Shown: in pieces, positions 29,676 through 61,103 of the stretch | How positions within the stretch are numbered: the stretch's first letter is position 1 | Layout of the letters: every line of letters starts with the position of its first letter | Origin: a virus | Length of the DNA: 64,000 nucleotides | Strand: one strand, 5' to 3' | Virus record (IMG/VR): IMGVR_UViG_3300009034_000014 | Span: 19,438-83,437 of that record | Made by a program: the position numbers and the translations under genes | The notes under the pieces: model-generated | Seen by the model: only the letters and a program-made list of their open reading frames with translations | Database searches by the model: none | What the model was told of the DNA's origin: nothing

Positions 29676-29906
29676 CTACTTGTTGCCTAACTCGCTCCCC
29701 AGCTCTTCTAGCCGCGTCCAACCGCGACTCTCGTTGACGTAGACGACTTTGCCTGCTTCAAATTTCAAAGTAACCTGACCGAAAAAACCACGCTGCTTCA
29801 GGCTCTCAAAGTACAAACCTAGAAGATTGCATTGGGTCTTTCCGTTCTCATGCCTCAATTGTGACAAACTGTTGTTCTTGCTGTCAAGAGATTTATTTTT
29901 GTTCAT
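29676..29906 (-). CDS. Small hypothetical protein (DUF2292-like layout)
   Basis: Start ATG 29906 overlaps the stop of the protease fusion (ATGA). The 76-residue product has a Lys/Asn/Ser-rich start, then a helix (CNLLGLYFESLKQRGFFG) and a short beta part (QVTLKFEAGKVVYVNESRG). The pattern F-G-x-V-T-L-x-F-x-x-G-K-V-V is like the DUF2292 small-protein family, whose role is unknown. It ends just before the terminator. Confidence 0.6.
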   Translation of the reverse strand: MNKNKSLDSKNNSLSQLRHENGKTQCNLLGLYFESLKQRGFFGQVTLKFEAGKVVYVNESRGWTRLEELGSELGNK

Positions 29907-32900
29907 ATTACGGTTGCCACTCCCTGAATAGAAAATCCGGTGATTTCCCCCTTCTTCACCTTCTTCCATAGCGTGTCGTCGTTAATCTTGTTCGACATGA
30001 GCCACGTACCCTTTGTCACCTTCTGATCGCCGAGTTTGAAACTCGTTTTTGCTATCCAGGACTCGACCAACTCCACGCCTATCTCTCCGAACATCGTGTG
30101 CAGCACCCCGAGCTGAGTCTCGCGGTTGTAGCTCGCCAGAAACTTGTGTGCTGCGCGCTCGATGGCCTCAGCATCGATTGTATCGCCCTGCGCGTCCACC
30201 TCGTCCGGTTCTAGGACTATGCCGGTGACGATTCGCTTTTCCTTGTCCACCTTCGCGATCACGGTCTCGTTGACGAACGCCGCTTTGAATACCTCTGCCA
30301 TTTCTCCAGCCTCCTTCTTCACCTCCGGACCCGGGACAGAAGGCTGCCACAACCAGTCGCCGTCCGAGCGCTTAGCCTCGTACAAGCCTTTCAGTAGCTC
30401 GCCCTTGATCTGCACCTTCAGAAACTTGTCGCTGTAGGACAGGACCGAGGCTTTTCCGGAATCCAGGATCTCGATGTTTGAAGGCGTGGCCTTCGTCGGG
30501 TTCAGATAGTGACTCGGCTTGATCTCGCCCTCGAATTTCATGCTCTCCTTGTGCGGATCGTCCTTCACGTCCGCCGCGAGCCGCTTGTTGTCCAGCGGGT
30601 TCAAGTACATCTCGACGACGATCAGTTCCGGTCGACCAACATCCAGCCGTAGGTGCCAGAGCGTTCGGGACGGACCGACGCGGATCTGGATCGGACCTCG
30701 CCAGGTCTGCTCTTGAAGCACGAATCGTGCGTCGAGCATGCTGGCCTTCGTGGTTCGCCGCTTGTACGGCGCGGTGTAGTCGATCTCCACGTCTTTCGCC
30801 TTGATCGCCAGTTGCAGCGCGTCACGAGTCTGCTTGGCCTTGGCAGCTGTCTTGCTTTTCCAGTAGCGGTACTCGACCGGCACCTGCTTGCGGATAGCCT
30901 TTGGCAGCGCTGAGATTCCCACCGGAGGCATCCAACCTTTTTTTACGGCGTCGCGGTCGAGCACATAGGGAGTCTGATCGTCTGGACGGATACACAGCCA
31001 AACAGGTCCAGGCAACTCAGACTCCTCTGAAGGTGGGAGTACCGCTTTACTCAGCACCTCGCCTTTCAGGTTTTCAGGTAGATCCTCATCGTCTGGAGTG
31101 CCGTCTTTCTTCAACCGAAGCTGGCGGAAGAAGATCCGGTAGTTGAGCGCCTTGCCGACCATTGCATACTCGTGGAGCCAAACTTTTTGAGCCAAGTATT
31201 CAGCCTCGCCCTGGTCCACGATCTGGAACACGCCAGGGAACTCTCGCGTCCCTCCCACGGGTGGCGGCTTGCCCTCCTCAGGCATCTTAGTGGCACCTTC
31301 GACATTGAGCCAATCGTACGGCTCCGCTGCCTTCCGAACCGAGTTGATTGAAGTGCGAACTGGCTCTTTCACACCGCGCTTGCGCCTCTTCGCCCACTCT
31401 CCGGTGTTCCAGTTGATCTTGGAAATCTCATCCATGCGCGTTCGGCTCAGCGCCCGAGCCTGCGATAGCTTGGTGACGGGTTCTTTGATCTCTCCCTTGA
31501 TGCCGGTGAGCAACGTCCAGCCGATTAGCAGACGCTTCGGTCGCAGTACAATGCGGAGATCCGAATGCATAGATTTTCCGCGAAAATGATGCTGCACAGA
31601 ATAGGCATAAGGCGCCTTGTCTTCGTCCGGGATCTCCATGTACGGATCGGCTTGTTTCTCTACCGCGCGGGTTGGGAGGTATTCGATGTTCCCTTCTTCG
31701 TCGATCTCCTTGACTTGGAGCACGAGGTTGCGCTTCGCGCGTGCCGCAGCCGAATCAACGGTATCAGTCTTGTCAGTCCACGGCCCGATCACACGCGGCA
31801 CCCAGACGGACATGCGCTCGCCCTCTGGCTTGCGCTCGATGTTGATCGTCTCTCCCTCGATCAGGATGGGATCGCCTTCCGCGAAGTCAAGCTTAGTCGC
31901 GAAAGTGTCGCCTACCGGAGTGACTGTCTTCCCCTTCACCTGAACGGTCTTGATCGGCTTCGCCTTCCCGGGTAGCACGCCATATTGGTAGACCCAGACT
32001 CCGCCCTTAGTCTTCTCCCGTCCGAGAACGATCCCGCGCACTATGCTGGAGTTGTGAAATTTGGTCCAGAGATCGAGCGTCACGACCTTGAGCGGGTATG
32101 GGCTGTCCGCCTGCTTCGCGACCACGCCTTCCGACCCTGGCAGCTCGCGGATCTTGCGGACGGCGCGTTCCAGTTCTTCCAGATCATGGGCCTTGGTTCC
32201 TGGTACAGCATTCAGCCTGTGTTTCAGATCCGGAGCACCCATGGTGCTCTGCTCGACTCCCAGCTTCCCAAGAAGCTCCAGTCTGCGGAACACCGGCCAC
32301 TTGTGAACGTCGCCGTCCTCGCCGTGGTAGAGCACGTCGAACACGTTGGTCACGACGTTTGAGTCGTCTGGCTCGTCCTTTGCATGCAGGTAGCCAGCTA
32401 TCGCCTCGCGCGGGAGGTGCTGGCGTCCCTTCCACAATTCGATCTCACAGTCGAAGACCAACTTGTCGACCTTGAGTTTTCGGATCTCCTCGACCGTCTG
32501 CGGAAGCCTCGCCGTGTTGTCCTCGCCGTCTTCAGAGAAGATCTTGACCGTGTCGCCGTCCTTGTGGACCTGGTGGCGGGCACCGTCAAATTTTTTCTGG
32601 ACATGGGTCGGGAGCCATTCATCGGCTCGTTCGCGGTAGAGCGAAAGAAAGCGCTCAATGGTCTGAAGTTCCTCCGGGAATGCTGGCCGCGTCGGCTTCG
32701 GCTGATAGAAGAACTCGCCAAGGGTGAGTTTGTCGTTCTTCTCGGCGCGCTCGGCCTGCACTAGGAACTTCCCAGTGGGGTCGCGTGACACAAGGGCGAC
32801 GGACTTCTTCACCGACCGCAGGCTGCTCAGGAAGGCCTTCGCGACGGCTGACGCGAGCGGCACCGGCACGCAGTCGCCGAGCAGCCCCCGGACCCCCGTC

Positions 32901-33775
32901 CATGTGCTCACGGCGAACTTGTATGAGTCAGGGATGCCCTGGATGCGGGCCGTCTCGCGGAGCGTGAGCCAGCGCTTCCCACCCCAGTGAATGAACGCGC
33001 CCTGCGCGATCAAGGTCGGCGCCGGCTTGTCCGGGCTCCGGATCAGGACGTCGCCCTGATGAATGGATGACAGGCGCCCAGCCCGGAGTTCCGCCTCTGG
33101 GCTTTTGCCCTCTCGTAGGATCTGGACGAAGAGCTTCAGCCTGTCTGACAGCGGAGGAGGTGCAGAGTGAAGTCCCTCGCCTCCGGGCGGACCGAGCCCG
33201 CTGAGCACGTCACGGACGGAGCGCGGCCGGGAGCGAGGCACCCCGTCCTGCTCTGGTAGCTGACCGCCCTTGACCCCAACGAAGAACGCGCGCTGCCTGA
33301 TCGTCGCGGCACCATGTTCGCTTGCCCTCAGGACCCAGACGGCGGTCTTGTAGCCCAGCCTCTCAGCGCGCGCCCTAGCCCGCTTCCAGCGCTCTGACTT
33401 CACCGCGCCCGGCACGTTCTCAAACACGAAGCCCCGCGCGCCGAGGGCGACCACGAGGTTGATCGCATAGTTGATAAGACCCCTCCTAGAGTCGTTCTCC
33501 TTCGGGCTGAAGCGGTTGATCGCTGAGAACGGCTCACAGGGCACGCCGCCGACTACGATGTCCACGCGCCCGATCGCCTTGCCGATCTCGGGGATGCTGA
33601 ACTTGCGGCAGTCCCCGAGAAGCACTGCGGCGTCGGGGCGGTTCATTGCGAAAGTGCCCGCGGCTGGCCTCTCCGATTCAACGCCGAGAACGGAGACGCA
33701 GCCCTCCTTCTCGAAGCCGATGGAGAGCGCCCCCATCCCGCAAAAAACGTCCAGCATCCTCAGTTTTTCTGGCAT
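29903..33775 (-). CDS. Fusion: C5-cytosine methyltransferase, ATP-dependent DNA ligase, two LigD-PE-like domains, XkdF prohead protease
   Basis: A 1290-residue protein. Residues 1-325 are a complete Dcm-type methyltransferase: LDVFCGMGALSIGF, catalytic GGVPC (Cys80), ENV (119-121), RQR (160-162), GDCVPVPLA. Residues 385-660 are an ATP-dependent DNA ligase: KFDGAR with adenylation Lys395, FDVLYHG, EGVVAK (549-554), WTKFH. Residues 720-900 have SVQHHFRGKSMHSDLRIVL, the metal-binding motif of LigD 3'-phosphoesterase domains. A second, motif-poor copy spans about 1013-1140 (FEGEIKPSHYLNPTKATPS). Residues 1160-1290 are XkdF-like prohead protease (TGIVLEPDEVDAQGDTIDAE ... GEITGFSIQGVATVI). It stands where the head protease gene is expected. 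The methyltransferase part and adjacent vsr are GC-richer by eye, suggesting later capture. Confidence 0.85.
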   Translation of the reverse strand: MPEKLRMLDVFCGMGALSIGFEKEGCVSVLGVESERPAAGTFAMNRPDAAVLLGDCRKFSIPEIGKAIGRVDIVVGGVPCEPFSAINRFSPKENDSRRGLINYAINLVVALGARGFVFENVPGAVKSERWKRARARAERLGYKTAVWVLRASEHGAATIRQRAFFVGVKGGQLPEQDGVPRSRPRSVRDVLSGLGPPGGEGLHSAPPPLSDRLKLFVQILREGKSPEAELRAGRLSSIHQGDVLIRSPDKPAPTLIAQGAFIHWGGKRWLTLRETARIQGIPDSYKFAVSTWTGVRGLLGDCVPVPLASAVAKAFLSSLRSVKKSVALVSRDPTGKFLVQAERAEKNDKLTLGEFFYQPKPTRPAFPEELQTIERFLSLYRERADEWLPTHVQKKFDGARHQVHKDGDTVKIFSEDGEDNTARLPQTVEEIRKLKVDKLVFDCEIELWKGRQHLPREAIAGYLHAKDEPDDSNVVTNVFDVLYHGEDGDVHKWPVFRRLELLGKLGVEQSTMGAPDLKHRLNAVPGTKAHDLEELERAVRKIRELPGSEGVVAKQADSPYPLKVVTLDLWTKFHNSSIVRGIVLGREKTKGGVWVYQYGVLPGKAKPIKTVQVKGKTVTPVGDTFATKLDFAEGDPILIEGETINIERKPEGERMSVWVPRVIGPWTDKTDTVDSAAARAKRNLVLQVKEIDEEGNIEYLPTRAVEKQADPYMEIPDEDKAPYAYSVQHHFRGKSMHSDLRIVLRPKRLLIGWTLLTGIKGEIKEPVTKLSQARALSRTRMDEISKINWNTGEWAKRRKRGVKEPVRTSINSVRKAAEPYDWLNVEGATKMPEEGKPPPVGGTREFPGVFQIVDQGEAEYLAQKVWLHEYAMVGKALNYRIFFRQLRLKKDGTPDDEDLPENLKGEVLSKAVLPPSEESELPGPVWLCIRPDDQTPYVLDRDAVKKGWMPPVGISALPKAIRKQVPVEYRYWKSKTAAKAKQTRDALQLAIKAKDVEIDYTAPYKRRTTKASMLDARFVLQEQTWRGPIQIRVGPSRTLWHLRLDVGRPELIVVEMYLNPLDNKRLAADVKDDPHKESMKFEGEIKPSHYLNPTKATPSNIEILDSGKASVLSYSDKFLKVQIKGELLKGLYEAKRSDGDWLWQPSVPGPEVKKEAGEMAEVFKAAFVNETVIAKVDKEKRIVTGIVLEPDEVDAQGDTIDAEAIERAAHKFLASYNRETQLGVLHTMFGEIGVELVESWIAKTSFKLGDQKVTKGTWLMSNKINDDTLWKKVKKGEITGFSIQGVATVI

Positions 33776-33822: not shown

Positions 33823-34251
33823 ATGACCCGTGAGGAGAGATCGAAGCACATGGCAAAGATCAGGGGCGATGACCTCAGGCCCGAGACGGCGGTCGCCACC
33901 GCCTTCCAGAGGCTGCGACGTCGACCAGAACGGAACGTGGCCGACCTGCCTGGCCGCCCTGACTTCGTGCTCCGCCGGTCGCGCGTCGCGGTGTTCGTGC
34001 ACGGCTGCTTCTGGCACGGCTGCCGGGCGCACTACCGGGCACCCAAGTCGAACCGGCCCTTCTGGCGTCGCAAGCTGAACACGAACCGCCGGCGGGACGC
34101 GCGCGTCGAGCGCAGCCTCCGCCGCGCGGGATGGTCCGTGCTCACGGTGTGGGAGCACGACACTCGGCAGGGCGTGGGTCACCTGGTCAATCTCCTTTCC
34201 TACCGACTCCGCGCCGCTTCAGGAAGGCGCGAAGGTCGTCGACGGACGTGA
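33823..34251 (+). CDS. vsr: Very short patch repair (Vsr) endonuclease
   Basis: A 142-residue protein on the opposite strand to almost all neighbours. It has the full Vsr pattern: RSKHMAKIRGDDLRPETAV, DLPGRPDFVL (catalytic Asp), VAVFVHGCFWHGC (His residues), PKSNRPFWRRKLNTNRRRD and GWSVLTVWEHD. Vsr nicks at T:G mismatches left by deamination of 5-methylcytosine and normally accompanies dcm genes, matching the Dcm domain encoded divergently 47 bases away. Its 3' end overlaps the 3' end of the polyprotein at 34187 by 65 bases. High GC and reversed strand suggest a transferred vsr-dcm cassette. Confidence 0.9.
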   Translation: MTREERSKHMAKIRGDDLRPETAVATAFQRLRRRPERNVADLPGRPDFVLRRSRVAVFVHGCFWHGCRAHYRAPKSNRPFWRRKLNTNRRRDARVERSLRRAGWSVLTVWEHDTRQGVGHLVNLLSYRLRAASGRREGRRRT

Positions 34252-37093
34252 CCACGTTCGGCGGCAAATCTGCCGCCGCCATCTCCTTCACCTCGTTCTG
34301 AGGGTTCACCCGCTCGAAGGTCAGATCGTAGAGCGGCACGTTGTTGGTGAATGGCCCGTGGAAATTGTCGAAGTGGATTTCCAACCGCTCTGACAACTCA
34401 GGCGGAAGCGCTCGCCCGAGACGGAAGTGCACCACATGCTTGAAGTCCTCTGGCAGTTCCTCGGTGTCCTTCACAAGGATATCGATGTCCCCTTCCGTAG
34501 CGCCGCGGTTCGCGAGTCCGCCTACCAGATAGACGTATGGCTGGCGCAACTTGAACGTCTTGAAATACGGGAGCACATCGTCCAGCTTGATCTCCGGACC
34601 GCGCTTCACTCCAGACGAGTGTATGAAAGCGTAGTCTCGCTTGCTCACCTTCTCCCACGGTGGGACGTCGTAATCCGGTTGCTTCTCCTCGTGGCGCTCG
34701 AAATCCTCTGACACGTCGTCCAGTCCGTCGCCAGGCGGAGGCGGGTGCAGCACCTTTCGCTCGAACAGCTCGTCTGTGATCAGTGCGTGCAGATTGGAAA
34801 CGTCCTCTACGCTGAATCCAGCCCGGCGTCGGTCCTCGGCGGGTCCGCGCCAGAGCTTGTGCAGCCTCCAGTGGGCCTCGGTAAGGTCCGCCGTGGTCAT
34901 CTCTCCAGCGTCTAGGTCTGGTGCGAGTTCCACGCGCTTGAGCATGACTTCCGGGAGCTTCACTTCACGGGCAACGCGTTCCCAGAATTCGCGCACGCTC
35001 GGCTTCATGCCCTTGGGGTTGAAGCGAACAACCTCCGGGCCACGGCGAACGGCTTCCTTCAGGATCTTGCGCAGCAGCAGTTCAATGGTCTCAAGGTCGT
35101 ACTTGAAGCCCTTGGGATCTTTCTTCCAGTTGGCGTAGTACGCGAGAGTCAGCCGGTGGTCATCGCGGAGCACGGCGTCGGAAACCTTGCTCGCATCGTA
35201 GGTCTTCGGGTCGCGGATCTTCTTGGCTTCCTGGACCGTGTAGTTCTGGTAAAGAATCTGCGTACTCTCAAGGCCACCAAAGCCCGGCGTAGTGCGGGTA
35301 AGTTTGCGCTTAGTCCATCCCGAGCCGAGATCTAGATTGCCTTGGTACGAAAGCAGAACCCGGCCCTTTAGTTTCTTCACAGCATCAAGGAACTTATCCG
35401 CATCAAAATTTTTCCAGTGATCCGTTTTGCTTTCTGCCTTCCATGGCGGATCGAGGTAGAAGAAAGTTGCCGTCGAATCCAATTTTTTGATTAGTTTTAG
35501 CGCATCGCCCTCAACAATTTTCGTATTGCTCAGCCGCTCTCGGAATTTCTCAAGATTGTCGAGAAACCGCTTGCCGGTTACCGTCTGAGCGCCTGAGAAT
35601 TCAGTCGCCCGGCCGCGTTGGCTGTGCAGATTAAGATACTTATGGCGAAAGGCACGGGCTCTGAGAGAGTTTGGCTTCAATTCCAACAAGCGCGCAAATC
35701 GTTCAGGACTCCCCCTCCATTCCTGTTGCCGGATCCATTTAAAATCGGCATCGCTACCAGTTTTCAGGAAACGGTACACAGCAATGATCTCAGGATCGAT
35801 ATCGCAGAGAACTTCCTGCTCCGAGGGCTCTTTTGCCCAAAACAAGGTCGCTCCACCTGCATACGGCTCTACATAGACCTTATGCTTCGGTACACGCTTC
35901 AATAGGTCATCTGCCCAAGGATCCTTGCCACCAGGGGATCTAAATGGTTTCGCCACCCGCTTCTCGGTGCCGCGCAGGCCAAGCTCATTGATATCCGAGT
36001 GTACGAGTTCGATCTTCTCGATCTTGAACGCGGCATCGAGCACCGGTAACTTATCGATCCTGGCTCCGACAGGTAAGTAGGCGAGTGTGGCGTGCGGGAC
36101 GAAGCCGTGTGTCTGGTCCTCGATTTCCGTGAACCCGGCCTTGCTCAGCACCGCCTTGATCTCGGTGTGCAGTTCTGCGAGCCCAGGTGCGTCTACCAGC
36201 GCGACCAGAGCAGTCGCAGCCTCTCCATCCTTGCTTGCGCCGTCGAAGAAGCCCCACCCCTGGAACTTCGCGTCGATAGGCTTTGCCTTGTCGAGCACCT
36301 TCTGCACAGCACTTAGCGCGTCTTCCTTGTCGCTCTCCGAGTACTCGCCTTTGCTCGGCACGTATAAAACGGTGATGTGGTCCGCGTCGTCGGCCTCGGC
36401 GAAGTCTACGCCCTTCAGTAGCTCGCCGGATAGCTCCATCAACTTCTTCCTGATCTCATCTGGAAGCCTAGCGCAGAAAAACAGGTGCGTCGGGTCGGTG
36501 TGGATCTGTTTCTCTACCGATTTCAGCTCCACATCCCGGGCCAACACCTGCGGACCGGGACCGATGTTGGTCTCAGCCGGCGCATCGAACTTGCTTTCCA
36601 TTTTAACGGGCCAGGCGTAGAACGGTCCTTTCTTCCAGCCCTTCTGCGCCTTGGCCCACTCCGAACGCAGATCCTCGGAAATGAGATGTTGATCGATTGT
36701 GCGCTTCAGCTCGTCCAGATCCACATCCCGCAGCTTGCCAAGAGTCACGACGCCCAATGCCTTGCGCTCACTGATCAACAAGTAGCGCTTGCCCGCGATC
36801 TCAAATGGCCGCGTCTTCACGATCAGGGTCTTGCGGCCATCCAGCACGGCCTCGGCCATCCACGCCGGCGACACGATCAACCCGTCGGTCGGTAGCTCCG
36901 CCTCGCCGCTGTAGTCCTCGATGCGCGGCAGTCTTGGTTCCTTCTCGTCAAGTGGGATCCCGCTCTCTCCAAACCCGGCTGGGTAGAGTTTACCACCGTC
37001 CTCCAGTTCTGGAAGACCGATTGCTTTTCTGACCGGAGTGCTTTGCTCGCCCTTTGGAACCATACTGCATGGTGGTCTTTTACGTGGCATCAT
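34187..37093 (-). CDS. Fusion: ASCH-like, 2H phosphoesterase, Dam-type adenine methyltransferase, nucleotidyltransferase
   Basis: Start ATG 37093 (MMPRKRPP) has GGGAG two bases upstream; the longer frame to 37384 would overlap the MuF gene. The product is 968 residues. About 65-165 is a PUA/ASCH-like fold (PFEIAGKRYLLISERKALGV ... GPFYAWPVK). About 200-345 is a 2H phosphoesterase with HIT at 239-241 and HAT at 334-336. About 375-620 is a D12-class adenine methyltransferase: KPFRSPGGK, VEPYAGGATLFWAK (408-421), DPPW (548-551, where most have DPPY). About 850-960 is a Pol-beta-like nucleotidyltransferase (GGLANRGATEGDIDILV, Asp869/Asp871). It sits between MuF and the protease fusion. RNA/DNA end processing plus modification is inferred. 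Confidence 0.82.
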   Translation of the reverse strand: MMPRKRPPCSMVPKGEQSTPVRKAIGLPELEDGGKLYPAGFGESGIPLDEKEPRLPRIEDYSGEAELPTDGLIVSPAWMAEAVLDGRKTLIVKTRPFEIAGKRYLLISERKALGVVTLGKLRDVDLDELKRTIDQHLISEDLRSEWAKAQKGWKKGPFYAWPVKMESKFDAPAETNIGPGPQVLARDVELKSVEKQIHTDPTHLFFCARLPDEIRKKLMELSGELLKGVDFAEADDADHITVLYVPSKGEYSESDKEDALSAVQKVLDKAKPIDAKFQGWGFFDGASKDGEAATALVALVDAPGLAELHTEIKAVLSKAGFTEIEDQTHGFVPHATLAYLPVGARIDKLPVLDAAFKIEKIELVHSDINELGLRGTEKRVAKPFRSPGGKDPWADDLLKRVPKHKVYVEPYAGGATLFWAKEPSEQEVLCDIDPEIIAVYRFLKTGSDADFKWIRQQEWRGSPERFARLLELKPNSLRARAFRHKYLNLHSQRGRATEFSGAQTVTGKRFLDNLEKFRERLSNTKIVEGDALKLIKKLDSTATFFYLDPPWKAESKTDHWKNFDADKFLDAVKKLKGRVLLSYQGNLDLGSGWTKRKLTRTTPGFGGLESTQILYQNYTVQEAKKIRDPKTYDASKVSDAVLRDDHRLTLAYYANWKKDPKGFKYDLETIELLLRKILKEAVRRGPEVVRFNPKGMKPSVREFWERVAREVKLPEVMLKRVELAPDLDAGEMTTADLTEAHWRLHKLWRGPAEDRRRAGFSVEDVSNLHALITDELFERKVLHPPPPGDGLDDVSEDFERHEEKQPDYDVPPWEKVSKRDYAFIHSSGVKRGPEIKLDDVLPYFKTFKLRQPYVYLVGGLANRGATEGDIDILVKDTEELPEDFKHVVHFRLGRALPPELSERLEIHFDNFHGPFTNNVPLYDLTFERVNPQNEVKEMAAADLPPNVVTSVDDLRAFLKRRGVGRKGD

Positions 37094-42300: not shown

Positions 42301-42609
42301 CTACTCGTGCGCCTCGTAGTGGCACAGTTCGCCAGCCACATTCAGATCCGTGTCTGCCCCGAACGTGAAGCCGTTGGCCCGCGGCGTGATGCCCAGCGAG
42401 GTCAGTACGCTGATGTCGCCGTCGACCGAGGTCTTGACGCCTGCTGCGTCGGCCATGCCGCGGAACCACTCGATCCGGACCTTGCCACCGGACGCCACAT
42501 TGACCACGCGCACCAACTTGGGCCTGAAGCCCACCTTGTCGATGTTGAGAGCGGCCCCCGTGCCGTGGAATGCGCCTTGCGCGACTCTGTTTATTCCGGA
42601 ACCCATCAT
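42301..42609 (-). CDS. Putative decoration protein, copy 2
   Basis: A 102-residue Gly/Val-rich beta protein (AALNIDKVGFRPKLVRVVNV, RIEWFRGMADAAGVKT, GITPRANGFTFGADTDLNVA, ending CHYEAHE). It is clearly a paralogue of the gene just upstream (42624-42929): the phrases VGFRPKLVRVVN, EWF-GMADAA-VKT and GITPRA-GFT-GAD are shared. Small paired beta proteins like these near head genes are often capsid decoration or neck proteins. The start has tandem ATGs (42607 and 42604) after AGGAGG. Confidence 0.65.
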   Translation of the reverse strand: MMGSGINRVAQGAFHGTGAALNIDKVGFRPKLVRVVNVASGGKVRIEWFRGMADAAGVKTSVDGDISVLTSLGITPRANGFTFGADTDLNVAGELCHYEAHE

Positions 42610-42623
42610 ACACCTCCTACGCC

Positions 42624-42929
42624 CTACTCGTGGGCCTCGTAGTAGATGATCTCACCGGAAATGTTCACGTTCGCATCCGCTCCGATCGTGAACCCCCGAG
42701 CCCTCGGCGTGATTCCGTCTGCGGCAATCACGCTGATGGTTCCGTTGGTGACTGTCTTCACCGCCGCGGCGTCGGCCATGCCCGCGAACCACTCGAAGCG
42801 CGACAGTCCGGTCGCTCCCGCGTTCACGACACGGACAAGCTTCGGGCGGAAACCCACCGTATCAACGTTCATGGCCGAACCAGTACCGATCACGGCACCC
42901 ACTACGATCCTGTTTACTCCTGAACCCAT
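42624..42929 (-). CDS. Putative decoration protein, copy 1
   Basis: A 101-residue paralogue of the 42301-42609 product, sharing roughly two thirds of its residues (AMNVDTVGFRPKLVRVVNAG, ITPRARGFTIGADANVNISG, ending YYEAHE). The tandem duplication keeps length and both termini (MGSG-NR, YEAHE), so both copies are likely functional. I infer capsid decoration or another multi-copy virion role from size, beta composition and position beside the terminase gene. Confidence 0.65.
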   Translation of the reverse strand: MGSGVNRIVVGAVIGTGSAMNVDTVGFRPKLVRVVNAGATGLSRFEWFAGMADAAAVKTVTNGTISVIAADGITPRARGFTIGADANVNISGEIIYYEAHE

Positions 42930-50207: not shown

Positions 50208-50884
50208 TTCTTCACCACCTTCCTGCCGCGATGCACTTTGTTCGCGCGCGAGCGGTTAGTCTTCGACTTCCTGGCGCCGTCGACCGGTTCCAGAAGACTT
50301 GTAGAAGCCTTCCTGCCTCGTGTCAAGCTCGGGAGCTTTCTGTGGAGCTTTCCCGGCTTCAAATCTAACAGATTCTTGTCCCCGAATTTCTTCATGAGCA
50401 CATCGATCCCGCACAGCTCACTCAGAATGCGTTGACGGAGTTCTTCATTCGAGAGCTTAGCCACGACGACGCCGAGCGCGATCTCCTTCCGCTCCGGTTT
50501 GCGTTCGATAATTCCGAAGTCCTGACCCATCTTGATGATCTTGTCCAGGATTTCGGATCTCGCGCGGACCGCGGAGATCAGCGCTGGCAGGTTGCTCTTC
50601 AGCCGCGAAGTCTTCGACAGGCTCGTCAGCTCCCGGATGCAAGCGGCCTGCTGGACGAGGTAGTCGGCGTAGACCTCCTCGGTGGTCTTCCGCCGGATGG
50701 CGCTGACTTGGGCCTTCATCGCGCCGCGCTTGAGATCCTGGTACTCGTCGGGACCAAGACCGAGCTTTTCGGCGATCCAGTTGTCGGTGCGGCCTTCTTC
50801 CAGATAGTCGAGCACGCGCTGCATGACCGTCAACCGCGTGGCGTGCTCGAAGCGCTCGGCGCTCTCGAGTCTATCCGCACTCAT
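50204..50884 (-). CDS. Putative small terminase subunit / HTH protein
   Basis: A 226-residue protein with an N-terminal helix-turn-helix (RLTVMQRVLDYLEEGRTDNW ... EKLGLGPDEYQDLKRGA, about residues 18-55), a long helical middle (YADYLVQQAACIRELTSL, LPALISAVRARSEILDKIIK, MGQDFGIIERKP) and a very basic tail. The arrangement of HTH plus oligomerising helices and basic end is that of small terminases. It is not next to the large terminase (41783); four exported proteins lie between. A transcription regulator is the alternative. Confidence 0.5.
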   Translation of the reverse strand: MSADRLESAERFEHATRLTVMQRVLDYLEEGRTDNWIAEKLGLGPDEYQDLKRGAMKAQVSAIRRKTTEEVYADYLVQQAACIRELTSLSKTSRLKSNLPALISAVRARSEILDKIIKMGQDFGIIERKPERKEIALGVVVAKLSNEELRQRILSELCGIDVLMKKFGDKNLLDLKPGKLHRKLPSLTRGRKASTSLLEPVDGARKSKTNRSRANKVHRGRKVVKK

Positions 50885-53707: not shown

Positions 53708-53959
53708 CTAATCCTGGCCAAGAAAATGGTAGTCGCATCCACCATGATCAAATTCGGCCCGCACATACCGACGTGCGTACGCCTGCCGGATGCAGCCGCT
53801 GCCGTAGTAGATCAGCAGCCCAACCGCCGGGTAGCACCCGACTTCAAGTTGCTGAAACTCGCCGGCTCTGTTGGCCAGCTCTACGATTTCTCTGGCCAGC
53901 CAAAGCGGGATCTCGGTCCCGCCCTCGTACTCGTCAATGGAGTTCCCCAGATATATCAT
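53708..53959 (-). CDS. Hypothetical protein coupled to the Csx16-like gene
   Basis: An 83-residue protein with AGGAG seven bases before ATG 53959; the ATG overlaps the Csx16-like stop (ATGA), so both are translated together. It is helical with a beta end (YEGGTEIPLWLAREIVELAN, LEVGCYPAVGLLIYYGSGC, RAEFDHGGCDYHFLGQD). Several Cys and His residues near the end may bind metal. Unknown family; the coupling suggests a partner function with the Csx16-like protein. Confidence 0.5.
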   Translation of the reverse strand: MIYLGNSIDEYEGGTEIPLWLAREIVELANRAGEFQQLEVGCYPAVGLLIYYGSGCIRQAYARRYVRAEFDHGGCDYHFLGQD

Positions 53960-54336
53960 TTCGGATCTCCTTCGCGTCCTGGCCAGAAGTGATCCAGCCC
54001 CCGAGCGCCCTCACAGGACTGGTAGAGGTACTCACGTACCGCATCCAACTTCTCCTCGTCGTACACCTGGTACGTCCGGGGAGCGCCAGCGATTTCACGG
54101 ACGCGGGCAAGGTCCAGCTCCTTGCCTCGATCCTCGGGCGTGAGCGCCAGAGGCACGTCCGTGACCATCGCAGCGTGCACCGCCAGGCTAAGCGGCAACA
54201 CACCGAAGACATGGCAGCCCTCGATCTCCGTGAAACTCTTCACGTGATCGATGACGGTCACGTCGTCCTCAATCAGGTTCTGCTCTCGCAAGTAATCCAC
54301 GAGAGCGGGGTGCCTAGTGACAACTATGCGTTTCAT
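53956..54336 (-). CDS. Csx16/VVA1548-like CRISPR-associated family protein
   Basis: A 126-residue protein with AGGAGG before ATG 54336. It follows the Csx16 (VVA1548) layout closely: RIVVTRHPALVDYLREQNL, VTVIDHVKSFTEIEG, VFGVLPLSLAVHAAMV, LALTPEDRGKELDLARV and a final TYQVYD. In bacteria Csx16 genes lie in type III CRISPR loci, where they are thought to act on cyclic oligoadenylate second messengers; that role is recalled, not shown here. A phage copy with no cas genes nearby would fit an anti-type-III-CRISPR function. It is the first gene of the leftward small-gene operon. Confidence 0.7.
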   Translation of the reverse strand: MKRIVVTRHPALVDYLREQNLIEDDVTVIDHVKSFTEIEGCHVFGVLPLSLAVHAAMVTDVPLALTPEDRGKELDLARVREIAGAPRTYQVYDEEKLDAVREYLYQSCEGARGLDHFWPGREGDPK

Positions 54337-54505
54337 TTCACACCTCCTATGGGTTTCGCAATCCTATGTCCCAGCATTTCCGACCTCCTCATGGTTAGCG
54401 TTGCATTCATGTCATTAGATCACTGCACATACTGTGCCAATGCACCCCTTACCACCAGAATCTAATAAAATCATAGCACTACAGATCGTCGGATCTCCCA
54501 AAAAG

Positions 54506-54630
54506 TGTGGAAACGCATACTTTATTGCGCAGTAAGTGTGTAAATGTATACTCATGTGGCAAAAGTCCCTGCAAAATCAAAGCACTAGGCGTAAGACCAC
54601 ACCACGATAAGTGTGCATTTGCGTACACAG
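54506..54630. repeat. Three iteron-like repeats (AAGTGTG...GTAC)
   Basis: A 19-base element occurs three times: 54506-54524 (AAGTGTGGAAACGCATACT), 54537-54555 (AAGTGTGTAAATGTATACT), 54612-54630 (AAGTGTGCATTTGCGTACA). Centres are 31 and 75 bases apart, close to whole helical turns, and each shows partial two-fold symmetry. This fits binding sites for a repeat-recognising protein such as an operator or origin protein. Confidence 0.6.
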
Positions 54631-54767
54631 CTCTCTAGTATCGTGAAAATAAAGCAAAATAAGGTTTTCAGAAAAAAAAGTCGCGCTGGGAACGTGAGGG
54701 GGACAGACGATCTGTAGTATCCGGGAATCGCAGAAGATCTGGAGTGGGGGGGGCTCTTTCCCGAAAG

Positions 54768-54947
54768 TGTCACCGATTAGTGACAGTCGTAAAGCTGGCT
54801 TGTCACTGAACACCAGATTTTTCCGGTGATCGGGAATCCTTTATTTTCAATGCCTTGCCGGAAAAGTTAACATAATGGAGGTTATCGGACCATCAGGCAG
54901 TTATCGGGGATAGTGGAACATCTGAGTGACAGTGTAAAGCTAGCTTG
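54768..54947. repeat. TGTCAC/GTGACA operator-like dyads and a direct repeat
   Basis: TGTCAC at 54768-54773, GTGACA at 54780-54785 and TGTCACT at 54801-54807 make overlapping dyads. The segment AGTGACAGT(C)GTAAAGCT(G/A)GCTTG occurs at 54779-54802 and again at 54925-54947 with only two differences. Such dyads are typical of repressor operators; the Cro-like protein at 50932 is a possible binder. Confidence 0.6.
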
Positions 54948-55323
54948 ACAGCGAGTCGCGCTGAGTTCGGCTTGGGGGCTTCTCTCCTCTATCCCTTTGC
55001 CAATTTTCTGACCGACCCTAAAATCCCCTAGTGTTTGTGGGTTACTTTTCCAGAGAACTACTATACTAGATGGGGTTTATTTGGCTAGCATTTATTTACG
55101 ACTTGGCCAGATGGGCTAGATATAGTGCGATACTTTGGTCGAAAAGAATATAGGCGCAATGGCACTATTTTCTCTTTCTTTTCTTTTTATTTTTTTCTTC
55201 TATTTTTTTTCCCTCTTCTGTTCTGTATGGAGAGAGACAAGATCAGACGAGACCAGACCCCATTAATTAAGGGCTTTAGGTTAAGTTGGGGGGTTGTAGT
55301 TTAAGATTTGAGTTTTAAGATTT

Positions 55324-56196
55324 TCAGGATTCCGATTCCAACTCGCCGATCAGTCCTCCAACAAACTCCGCGAAGGGAACTGTAATTGCATTTCCGAGCA
55401 TCTCTCTACGGCGCGAGCGAGAAAATCGAGCAGTCCAGCCTCGGGGGAACCCTTGGAGACCTTCGCACTCTTCAGGAGTGAGAACACGAAGTCTCCCGCT
55501 GTCTTCGCACAAGACGTTTCCTTGGCTCTCGAATCCGGAGTAGATTTCTCCCTTTTCTCCATCGGATGCCTTGAGGCAATAGACTGTCGGCTCCCAACAA
55601 TAACTGTCTTCCGCCGCCATCCTCGCGGGGTGCGCAGTAACACACGCTGCAATGGGCGTCGTCTCTTCAGGGCGCGACGGACTAATCTTAGAACCATGCT
55701 GGGCGTCAAGTAATGCTCGCTTGAATCGGGCGGCTCCTCCTCCAGAACTTCCGACAAGGATTTGCCGCCGACGACTCTGACTTGTGAAATCTCTAGCGTC
55801 GAGCTCGAAAGCAACGACTCCGTATCCGAGGGTTTCCAGGGCCGCTGCGAAGTGCACAACATCTGGTGCAGGAACATTCTCGCGGACCACCCATCGTGGT
55901 TGTAGTCTTCCGACCACGGCGAGGAAGTATCCGGCAAGGTCGGGGTGCTTGCTTGGGCGGTTGCCTCTCGCACGTGATCGGGAAGGACAGGGGTCACCTC
56001 CACAAATAAGGTCAACTGTTTCGAGAAGCGGCAACGCCTCCCGGATGTCTCCGTATCGCCGGACGGTAGGCCACTTCTCCCGGAGCAGTCGGTTGCAGAA
56101 CTTGTCGTTTTCGACTTGCCAGGAGATCTTGAATCCGATCCTCTCGAATCCGAGGTCGAATCCTCCGATTCCCGTGAATAACGATCCGACATTCAC
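55324..56196 (-). CDS. dcm: C5-cytosine DNA methyltransferase
   Basis: I take GTG 56196, five bases after AGGAGG, giving 290 residues; an upstream in-frame start at 56316 has no ribosome site. The protein has SLFTGIGGFDLGFERIGF (motif I), GGDPCPSRSRARG (catalytic Cys in motif IV, where most have PCQPFS), RENVPAP (motif VI), SQSRRRQILVG (motif VIII) and ECEGLQGFPRGW plus GNAITVPFAEF (motifs IX-X). It transfers methyl groups to cytosine C5, protecting phage DNA from restriction. This is a second Dcm-type enzyme besides the domain in 29903-33775. Confidence 0.88.
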   Translation of the reverse strand: MNVGSLFTGIGGFDLGFERIGFKISWQVENDKFCNRLLREKWPTVRRYGDIREALPLLETVDLICGGDPCPSRSRARGNRPSKHPDLAGYFLAVVGRLQPRWVVRENVPAPDVVHFAAALETLGYGVVAFELDARDFTSQSRRRQILVGSSGGGAARFKRALLDAQHGSKISPSRPEETTPIAACVTAHPARMAAEDSYCWEPTVYCLKASDGEKGEIYSGFESQGNVLCEDSGRLRVLTPEECEGLQGFPRGWTARFSRSRRREMLGNAITVPFAEFVGGLIGELESES

Positions 56197-56257
56197 AACC
56201 ACCTCCTCTTTACGTACGTTACGGTACCGGGGCAACGGCCCTCCATTCTCCCTCGAC

Positions 56258-59276: not shown

Positions 59277-61103
59277 TCAGAGGCCCTCCCTCCTAGAAAA
59301 CAAACCCTGCTGCCTCGTACGCTTCTCGATCAGCGGGGCGTTCCCGTCGTTCAGTTCAAAGCCGATCCAACTGCGCCCGAGGTCTTGGCAGACTTGGCCG
59401 GTGGTTCCAGAGCCAAGAAAGGGATCGAGTACTGTACAAGGTATCGGCGAGTCCGCACCACATTGGCAACCGGGTTCCCAACCAACCGTAACCTTGCTAT
59501 GCACGACGCCCGTGTAGAATGCGCTCGTCTCACCGTGGCGGCCTTGGGAATGGTCTACTTGATGTCCCTTGCGCGCGCAGTTCTTAACCTTCACGGGCTC
59601 GCCCTCTTCCGTGGCTCGCGACCACGGCGCACCGCAACGCGGACAGCAGCCCCGTTCCGAAGTCCCTGCCATGATACAAGGTTTAATCAGGTTCGGAGGA
59701 AACACCGCGTAATGCGCCTCCGAATATGGTTGGGTTGGTATCGTCCAGACGGAACGTTTGTTACGCATTGGGTATAATTTGCCAACTGCATGATTACCAA
59801 CCCTAGTTTGAAAATATGGATCCCCTTTTCTTTTGTCAGAACTCCTACTTCTTCGTGGTCTATAACTTTCAGCGTCTATACTCGGCTCCTTTGCCGCATC
59901 AACATCATAAAAATACCTCTCCGATTTCGACAAAAGGAACACGTATTCGTGGCTTTTGGTGGTTCTGTCTGTCACGGATTCTGGTAGGGGATTCGGCTTG
60001 GACCAGATTATTGTCTGGCGGCATATCCACCCGTCTTCTTGCATGGCTACTTTTACCATATTCGGTGTGTCTATTTCCTGTTTAGCGCATTCTCGCTTTG
60101 ACATCCGGCTGGCTTCGTCGTATACTCTACTATATGGTATAAACGAGCCATCGGATAAGGAGAACCACAAATGCCCTACGTCGGAAACCACAAAGACAAA
60201 GCAGTTGCCTATGCTCTCGAACGTAACCTGCTGCTTGCTGGCCTTAGTTACGCGGAAATCGCGAAAAAGACAGGTGAACGGCAAAGAACCATCTCGGAGC
60301 GAAACAGATTGGTTCACAAGATCAGCATCTGGGATGCCTTTACTTCCCGCTGCGAGAGAGAAGGAGTCCCAACTAGGATGCCAGCGAACCGCCAGTTTTG
60401 CGACTGGTTCACCGGATTTTTTGACGGCGAGGGAAGTATTACTGTATTTACCCGCCTCTGCACTGGCCGTCCGCAATACAGCGAATTTCGCCTTGGAGTC
60501 CGTATTCAGATTCGGGAAGACGATGCCCCCACTATCAAGTACCTGCACAGCAACATTGGTTGCGGTCGCGTTGCCGAACATGCTGCACAGGGCACTACCA
60601 GGAAATCTATTTCTTGGGCATGTGAGGCAATCCAAGATCTCCGAGAAGTTATCATCCCCCTCTTCGATACCTCTGCCCTCCGCACCAAAAAAAGGCAGGA
60701 GTATGCCATTTGGCGTCCGCTCGTCGTGCGTCGCTACATCGATACCCTCGGTGGTCGTAGCAATAGGAAAGGCGTCAAGCCCGAATACAAGGCAACTTTT
60801 GAGAACGCGATTCATCGCTTGCGGCAAATCCGTGGTACCGCTTGAATACGATGAGCCCAGATTCAGCCACAGTGTTCCATCCGCCCGCAGTACCCGGCGC
60901 AACTCATGGAGGATGGCTACCAGTTTGTCGACGTATTCCTCCGGTGTCCTTTCAAGCCCGAGTTGCCCTTCGACTTTGTAATCCCTCAACTGCCAGTACG
61001 GCGGGCTGGTCACAATGCAGTGAACGGACTCGTCCGGTAGCTGGCGGGCTAGTTCAAGCGCATCACCGAAAGCGGGGCGGTTTATTTCAAAAGGTCCGAT
61101 CAC
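59277..61103 (-). CDS. N4-cytosine/N6-adenine DNA methyltransferase interrupted by antisense homing gene
   Basis: Start GTG 61103 overlaps the upstream stop (GTGA). The 608-residue frame has TSPPYWQLRDYKVEGQLGL (catalytic TSPPY at 32-36), HELRRVLRADGTLWLNLGSS, then a break. The family resumes with TPNMVKVAMQEDGWICRQTI, IWSKPNPLPESVTDRTTKSH, EYVFLLSKSERYFYDVDAAK and the SAM-binding FLGSGTTGQVCQDLGRSWIG near the C-terminus. A zinc-like insert (CCPRCGAPW ... CQCG) lies late. Residues about 87-335 match nothing in the family: they are the complement of the LAGLIDADG gene at 60171. The frame stays open through it. Whether the product is active is uncertain; this looks like a recent invasion. Confidence 0.75.
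   Translation of the reverse strand: MIGPFEINRPAFGDALELARQLPDESVHCIVTSPPYWQLRDYKVEGQLGLERTPEEYVDKLVAILHELRRVLRADGTLWLNLGSSYSSGTTDLPQAMNRVLKSCLVFGLDAFPIATTTEGIDVATHDERTPNGILLPFFGAEGRGIEEGDDNFSEILDCLTCPRNRFPGSALCSMFGNATATNVAVQVLDSGGIVFPNLNTDSKAKFAVLRTASAEAGKYSNTSLAVKKSGEPVAKLAVRWHPSWDSFSLAAGSKGIPDADLVNQSVSLRDGSLPFTCLFRDFRVTKASKQQVTFESIGNCFVFVVSDVGHLWFSLSDGSFIPYSRVYDEASRMSKRECAKQEIDTPNMVKVAMQEDGWICRQTIIWSKPNPLPESVTDRTTKSHEYVFLLSKSERYFYDVDAAKEPSIDAESYRPRRSRSSDKRKGDPYFQTRVGNHAVGKLYPMRNKRSVWTIPTQPYSEAHYAVFPPNLIKPCIMAGTSERGCCPRCGAPWSRATEEGEPVKVKNCARKGHQVDHSQGRHGETSAFYTGVVHSKVTVGWEPGCQCGADSPIPCTVLDPFLGSGTTGQVCQDLGRSWIGFELNDGNAPLIEKRTRQQGLFSRREGL
60098..60126 (+). promoter_or_regulatory. Strong sigma70 promoter for the homing endonuclease
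   Basis: TTGACA (60098-60103), exactly 17 bases, then TATACT (60121-60126), one base off the ideal -10. The homing endonuclease ATG at 60171 follows, with AAGGAG at 60157-60162. This is the best two-box promoter seen in the window. Confidence 0.75.
60171..60845 (+). CDS. LAGLIDADG homing endonuclease, antisense in methyltransferase gene
   Basis: A 224-residue protein with AAGGAG before its ATG. Residues 1-60 are a helical DNA-binding-like part (LERNLLLAGLSYAEIAKKTG, ERQRTISERNRL) resembling HTH repeats. Then comes WFTGFFDGEGSITVF, the LAGLIDADG motif with catalytic Asp/Glu. The later fold is RIQIREDDAPTIKYLHSNIG, CGRVAEHAAQGTTRK, REVIIPLFDTSALRTKKRQE. One such motif means it works as a homodimer. 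It sits in reverse orientation in the methyltransferase gene with its own promoter; its stop lies at the Tyr86/Ser87 junction of that gene. It spreads by cutting genomes that lack it. Confidence 0.85.
   Translation: MPYVGNHKDKAVAYALERNLLLAGLSYAEIAKKTGERQRTISERNRLVHKISIWDAFTSRCEREGVPTRMPANRQFCDWFTGFFDGEGSITVFTRLCTGRPQYSEFRLGVRIQIREDDAPTIKYLHSNIGCGRVAEHAAQGTTRKSISWACEAIQDLREVIIPLFDTSALRTKKRQEYAIWRPLVVRRYIDTLGGRSNRKGVKPEYKATFENAIHRLRQIRGTA

Follow-up and report, generated by a model that had tools for sequence, protein, structure and literature searches.

A myovirus genome carries, at the head of a leftward gene block, what its sequence identifies as a genuine, divergent, mobile-element-borne Csx16-like gene, and the protein it encodes is probably a type III anti-CRISPR that degrades cyclic tetra-adenylate (cA4). 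The stretch of DNA analysed (the window, 64,000 nucleotides) comprises bases 19438-83437 of a linear IMG/VR record of 83,438 bp. This kind of protein is already known; its mobile-element branch appears to be undescribed in the literature consulted on the family.

The csx16-like open reading frame has 126 codons and lies at 53956-54336 (minus strand), exactly where a sequence-only reading had placed it, and the motifs quoted in that reading (TRHP, GVLPLSLA and PEDRGKEL) are all present in the 126-residue protein. It is the only PF09652 copy in the 83,438-bp record. A strong ribosome-binding site, AGGAGGTG, is located just before its ATG (54341-54348, minus strand). The downstream gene, encoding 83 residues (53708-53959, minus strand), overlaps csx16 by 4 nt (ATGA, 53956-53959) and is probably translationally coupled to it. 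No Pfam match was obtained for this second protein, and a search of IMG/VR for its relatives found none.

The assignment of the protein to the Csx16/VVA1548 family, also made in the sequence-only reading, held for the Pfam family but not for the HMM that the reading had named. PF09652 (Cas_VVA1548/Csx16) matched residues 5-91 with E = 3.7e-16 and 59.5 bits, covering profile positions 2-90 of 91 and exceeding the curated gathering cut-off of 25 bits. TIGR02620, the NCBI equivalog for Csx16 (CRISPR-locus subfamily), gave 18 bits (E = 0.0025), under its curated cut-off of 46.35 bits. As controls, cas-adjacent Csx16 proteins, encoded beside cas1/cas2/csm6 or a Cmr operon, scored 114 bits (Allochromatium vinosum) and 94 bits (Aeromonas media), whereas the mobile-element relatives tested reached 13-45 bits, with ~45 bits for the Methanobacterium viruses Drs3 and PhiF3 and 13-27 bits for the window protein and its kin. 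These controls explain why the window protein falls short of TIGR02620: the mobile-element relatives tested all score far below cas-locus Csx16. Judged by this profile, it groups as a divergent mobile-element branch and not with the CRISPR-locus subfamily. Searches of the window protein against PHROGs, the PDB and, by tblastn, INPHARED phages returned no match.

The motifs conserved across the family are retained in the window protein: T7-R8-H9 (T/S-R-H), H31, G45-x-L47-P48 and R70-G71-x-E73-L74. Among 33 viral relatives and three cas-locus Csx16 proteins, all or nearly all keep these putative site residues. The branch lacks ~4 residues found in the cas-locus copies (EVCARGARY region), and its ligand or activity could therefore differ from that of cas-locus Csx16. 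The C-terminus of the window protein consists of a short variable helix and a tail. Loss of a catalytic histidine at the S of GVLPLSLA, which is H in some relatives, was considered and rejected, as family members have S, H, R, E, D, Y or N at this position.

AlphaFold2 predicted residues 1-92 with a pLDDT of ~96, as five strands with flanking helices, and DSSP assigned strands to 3-6, 27-29 and 42-45 and a helix to 76-82; the conserved motifs occupy the loops that come after these strands and before this helix. Judging by these elements and by what is generally known of the fold, we take this edge to be the one that holds the ligand in CARF proteins. Foldseek found no significant match to the predicted fold in the PDB or BFVD (best E = 0.066) and listed CARF proteins and AcrIII-2 only at E ~0.3-1. 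Matches of the profile to DARPins in the PDB were short and repeat-like and were discarded. DALI matches a published Csx16 model to a viral Crn2 structure (Z 4.8; PMC12409355).

The record encodes TerL (large terminase), portal, tape measure, tail sheath and baseplate proteins, and the phage is therefore a myovirus. Nearly all genes in the window point leftward, and csx16 is, as had been proposed, the first gene of a leftward block, with a largely non-coding region of ~1 kb behind it (54337-55323, no strand assigned) that is the probable control region of the block. This region contains three copies of an operator-like repeat (AAGTGTGnAAAyGyrTAC, 18-22 bp), which a repeat search located on the plus strand at 54502-54523, 54533-54554 and 54608-54629; two copies are perfect and one has two mismatches, against a chance expectation of 0.42 matches in the whole window. 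A promoter scan upstream of csx16 showed no clear excess above chance. A second repeat pair, GTAAAGCTnGCTTGnCA, with a palindromic core, is also present upstream of csx16, at 54789 and 54934.

The nearest upstream gene encodes a C-5 cytosine DNA methyltransferase (55324-56235, minus strand), a possible anti-restriction neighbour that we regard as context only. Another DNA methyltransferase is encoded nearby at 59277-61103, and the two together suggest a wider counter-defence region. A 62-kb relative (L028/G019) with a 68% identical terminase is syntenic over positions 863-50884 of the window, beyond which no match is seen, and it extends ~11 kb past the last shared gene; it has no PF09652 match. 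Since the synteny ends at 50884 and this relative lacks csx16, the gene lies in an accessory region.

A PLSDB search identified plasmid-borne Csx16 proteins in Allomeiothermus silvanus (43%) and Deinococcus proteolyticus; csx16 is the sole annotated cas gene in the plasmid stretches viewed. Scanning IMG/VR with the window protein alone gave no confirmed relative, and the scans therefore relied on alignment-based motifs. The window protein aligned with the two Deinococcota plasmid copies retrieved 15 viral contigs, every one of them over the PF09652 cut-off; a deeper alignment retrieved 38, and the union of both scans amounts to 40 contigs, some with identical proteins. An alignment of 6 sequences was too diverse as a scan query and was dropped. 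A scan of ~85,000 prokaryote genomes with motifs of the same kind yielded two loci only, in a MAG and in Meiothermus luteus. These motifs are typical of the mobile-element branch, so that the scans capture other Csx16 types less well and give only a rough idea of the virus-to-genome ratio. The MAG copy has a large serine recombinase as its neighbour and, with an IPP transferase (miaA-like) gene alongside, looks like part of a prophage.

Of the Csx16 contigs tested, five had phage portal genes that exceeded the cut-off; the viral status of the others follows the IMG/VR classification and phage-type neighbours (integrases, DNA ligases, exonucleases, helicases). Among the loci compared, the window phage and the other carriers have essentially no gene in common besides Csx16, and the gene has therefore moved among unrelated elements. 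Three related Csx16 pairs gave dN/dS values of 0.13-0.22; they are under purifying selection, and the genes are therefore maintained.

Maximum-likelihood trees, in which the three cas-locus sequences included do not fix the position of the root, united the window, viral, prophage and Deinococcota copies in one branch, with support of 98/97 (25 sequences) and 99/95 (45 sequences). Within this branch, the sister of the window protein is L009/L072 (96/87), and the viral copies form no clade by themselves; the cas-locus and methanogen-virus Csx16 proteins fall outside. With few exceptions, scans with branch-typical motifs have so far placed the branch on viruses, prophages and plasmids.

A phage location without cas genes, as claimed earlier, was borne out by the lack of any Cas10 palm-domain match in the 83,438-bp record, which is linear and may be incomplete. 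Cas10 was likewise absent from all 35 Csx16 contigs tested. Both cellular genomes with the branch (the MAG and M. luteus) contain Cas10 on a different contig. In Deinococcota such a co-occurrence is weak evidence, because Cas10 is common in that group (over the cut-off in 50 of 111 genomes). The PF08960 profile of AcrIII-1 had no match in the window record (G000) or in 24 related records.

We favour the reading that the phage makes a small CARF-like ring nuclease, probably a dimer, of the Csx16 (PF09652) superfamily against type III CRISPR. A host Cas10 complex would recognise phage RNA and make cA4. A pocket lined by the TRH, H31, GxLP and RGxEL loops would let the phage protein bind the cA4 and cut it, without metal, to linear products; effectors such as Csx1 or Can1/2 would thereby be kept off. 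As the phage has no Cas10 of its own to regulate, removal of host cA4 would be the most economical role of its copy. We infer both the cleavage of cA4 by the window protein and its benefit to the phage. This reading has in its favour the family assignment by Pfam, the conserved putative site, the phage location, the accessory position, the purifying selection in relatives and the Cas10-free spread; against it stand the missed TIGR02620 cut-off, the ~4 residues by which the branch is shorter than the cas-locus copies, and the Foldseek searches without a significant match. A characterised Csx16 cleaves cA4, but not cA3 or cA6, in a buffer with EDTA and is thus a cA4-specific ring nuclease (PMC12409355).

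Other roles must be weighed against this one. The protein could act as a cA4 sponge, binding cOA tightly with slow or no cleavage and blocking signalling by sequestration, as might be expected from Csx15, another CARF-like family that binds cA4 well and cleaves it slowly (PMC13148439), and from the divergence of the mobile-element branch from cas-locus Csx16. However, every residue conserved family-wide, cas-locus copies included, is retained, one assayed Csx16 turns over a 100-fold excess of cA4 (PMC12409355), and sequestration fits poorly with the large cOA amounts made by type III systems, as argued in PMC13148439, all of which makes a sponge quite unlikely. It is very unlikely that the target is another nucleotide signal (cA3 or other CBASS cOA, or non-cA4 type III signals), given that the assayed Csx16 stays cA4-specific even at high enzyme concentration (PMC12409355) and that no positive evidence points to another ligand. 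The separateness of the branch, its lack of a segment present in cas-locus copies and the existence of signals common to type III systems and CBASS (PMC12409355) would nevertheless agree with such an anti-defence protein.

An unrelated or housekeeping nucleotide-binding role, in which only the fold is shared, would suit the replication and recombination genes often found next to the relatives and the structure searches without a significant match. The patchy, accessory distribution and the sequence homology to a family living in type III loci argue the other way and leave this role a small chance. Although Csx16 normally works within type III loci (PMC12409355), there is next to no chance that the protein regulates or limits a type III system of the phage's own, in view of the Cas10-free record and the 35 other contigs without a palm-domain match. 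A more far-reaching reading, which we regard as rather unlikely, can also be proposed: the mobile-element branch may form an anti-CRISPR family in its own right that deserves a separate AcrIII name, with a ligand range or mechanism shifted from cas-locus Csx16 (other cyclic oligoadenylates, or sequestration), largely missed by published phage surveys through its rarity in cultured phages and its scores below the Csx16 equivalog cut-off.

The window protein resembles the cas-locus Csx16 proteins of A. vinosum and A. media in the PF09652 match, the [ST]RH start, H31, GxLP, RGxEL and a core of ~100 residues. It differs from them in its 27-31% identity, its TIGR02620 score (18 versus 94-114 bits), its separate branch, the missing 4-residue segment, the extra C-terminal helix and tail, and the lack of cas genes nearby. 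The Methanobacterium viruses Drs3 (AXN53384.1) and PhiF3 (QGZ14607.1), found with a hand-composed Csx16-like query and represented by their own sequences in the later comparisons, are likewise tailed viruses with Csx16 near a genome end and no cas genes in the stretches viewed, and their proteins had already been labelled Csx16 / Cas_VVA1548 by the depositors. These viruses are archaeal, however, and their proteins, ~26% identical to the window protein, are near the cas-locus type by HMM (45 bits) and belong to another branch. Csx16 has been reported in two of 28,114 curated phage genomes (PMC12409355), plausibly those of Drs3 and PhiF3.

AcrIII-1 (viral Crn2, DUF1874, PF08960) belongs to a different sequence family; it is a ring nuclease with which viruses degrade cA4 and so block type III immunity. 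Viral ring nucleases further include AcrIII-2 and Crn4b (PMC12751052, PMC12830947); these signal degraders, of which Crn4b also occurs on plasmids, are a two-CARF SAVED protein and a protein of unrelated fold, respectively, both unlike the window protein. The sequence-only reading had considered a second phage ring-nuclease family credible. As an anti-type-III factor the protein remains so, but it is less new than was thought, with Csx16 already present in two phage genomes and AcrIII-2 and Crn4b known.

How phages disarm cyclic-nucleotide immunity can be seen directly in viral ring nucleases. The 40 uncultivated viral contigs, the prophage and the plasmids, set against two curated phage genomes, suggest that Csx16-type signal removal is commoner outside cultured phages. 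The branch supplies a compact panel of proteins for testing, in which the candidate active-site residues are conserved. It also leads one to ask who owned the Csx16 family first, cells or mobile elements.

Csx16 domains also occur in multidomain or tandem form on mobile elements (L003, which is A. silvanus pMESIL02, L059, L024, L016/G009 and L023). The variants include two domains in a 261-residue protein, a domain opening a protein of ~590 residues, and paired genes in which a 321-residue protein with a second Csx16 domain lies beside one of 94 residues. In two viral contigs (L013 and L022; 241 and 252 residues), the domain is fused to a conserved C-terminal part of ~140 residues, with a dN/dS of 0.13.

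Elsewhere in the window, the head-gene region (29903-33775 and 34187-37063) contains unusual fused or interleaved open reading frames. One, of 1290 residues, has a C5 DNA methyltransferase at 1-329, resembles a DNA ligase at 388-560 and carries a head maturation protease at 1171-1289; the other, of 958 residues, includes another methyltransferase segment. The 62-kb relative matches only parts 330-912 and 613-929 of the two. The unusual frames could be due to domain insertion or inteins. Finally, two small genes at 42301-42609 and 42624-42929, encoding 102 and 101 residues, are tandemly duplicated, and both match one single locus of the same relative.
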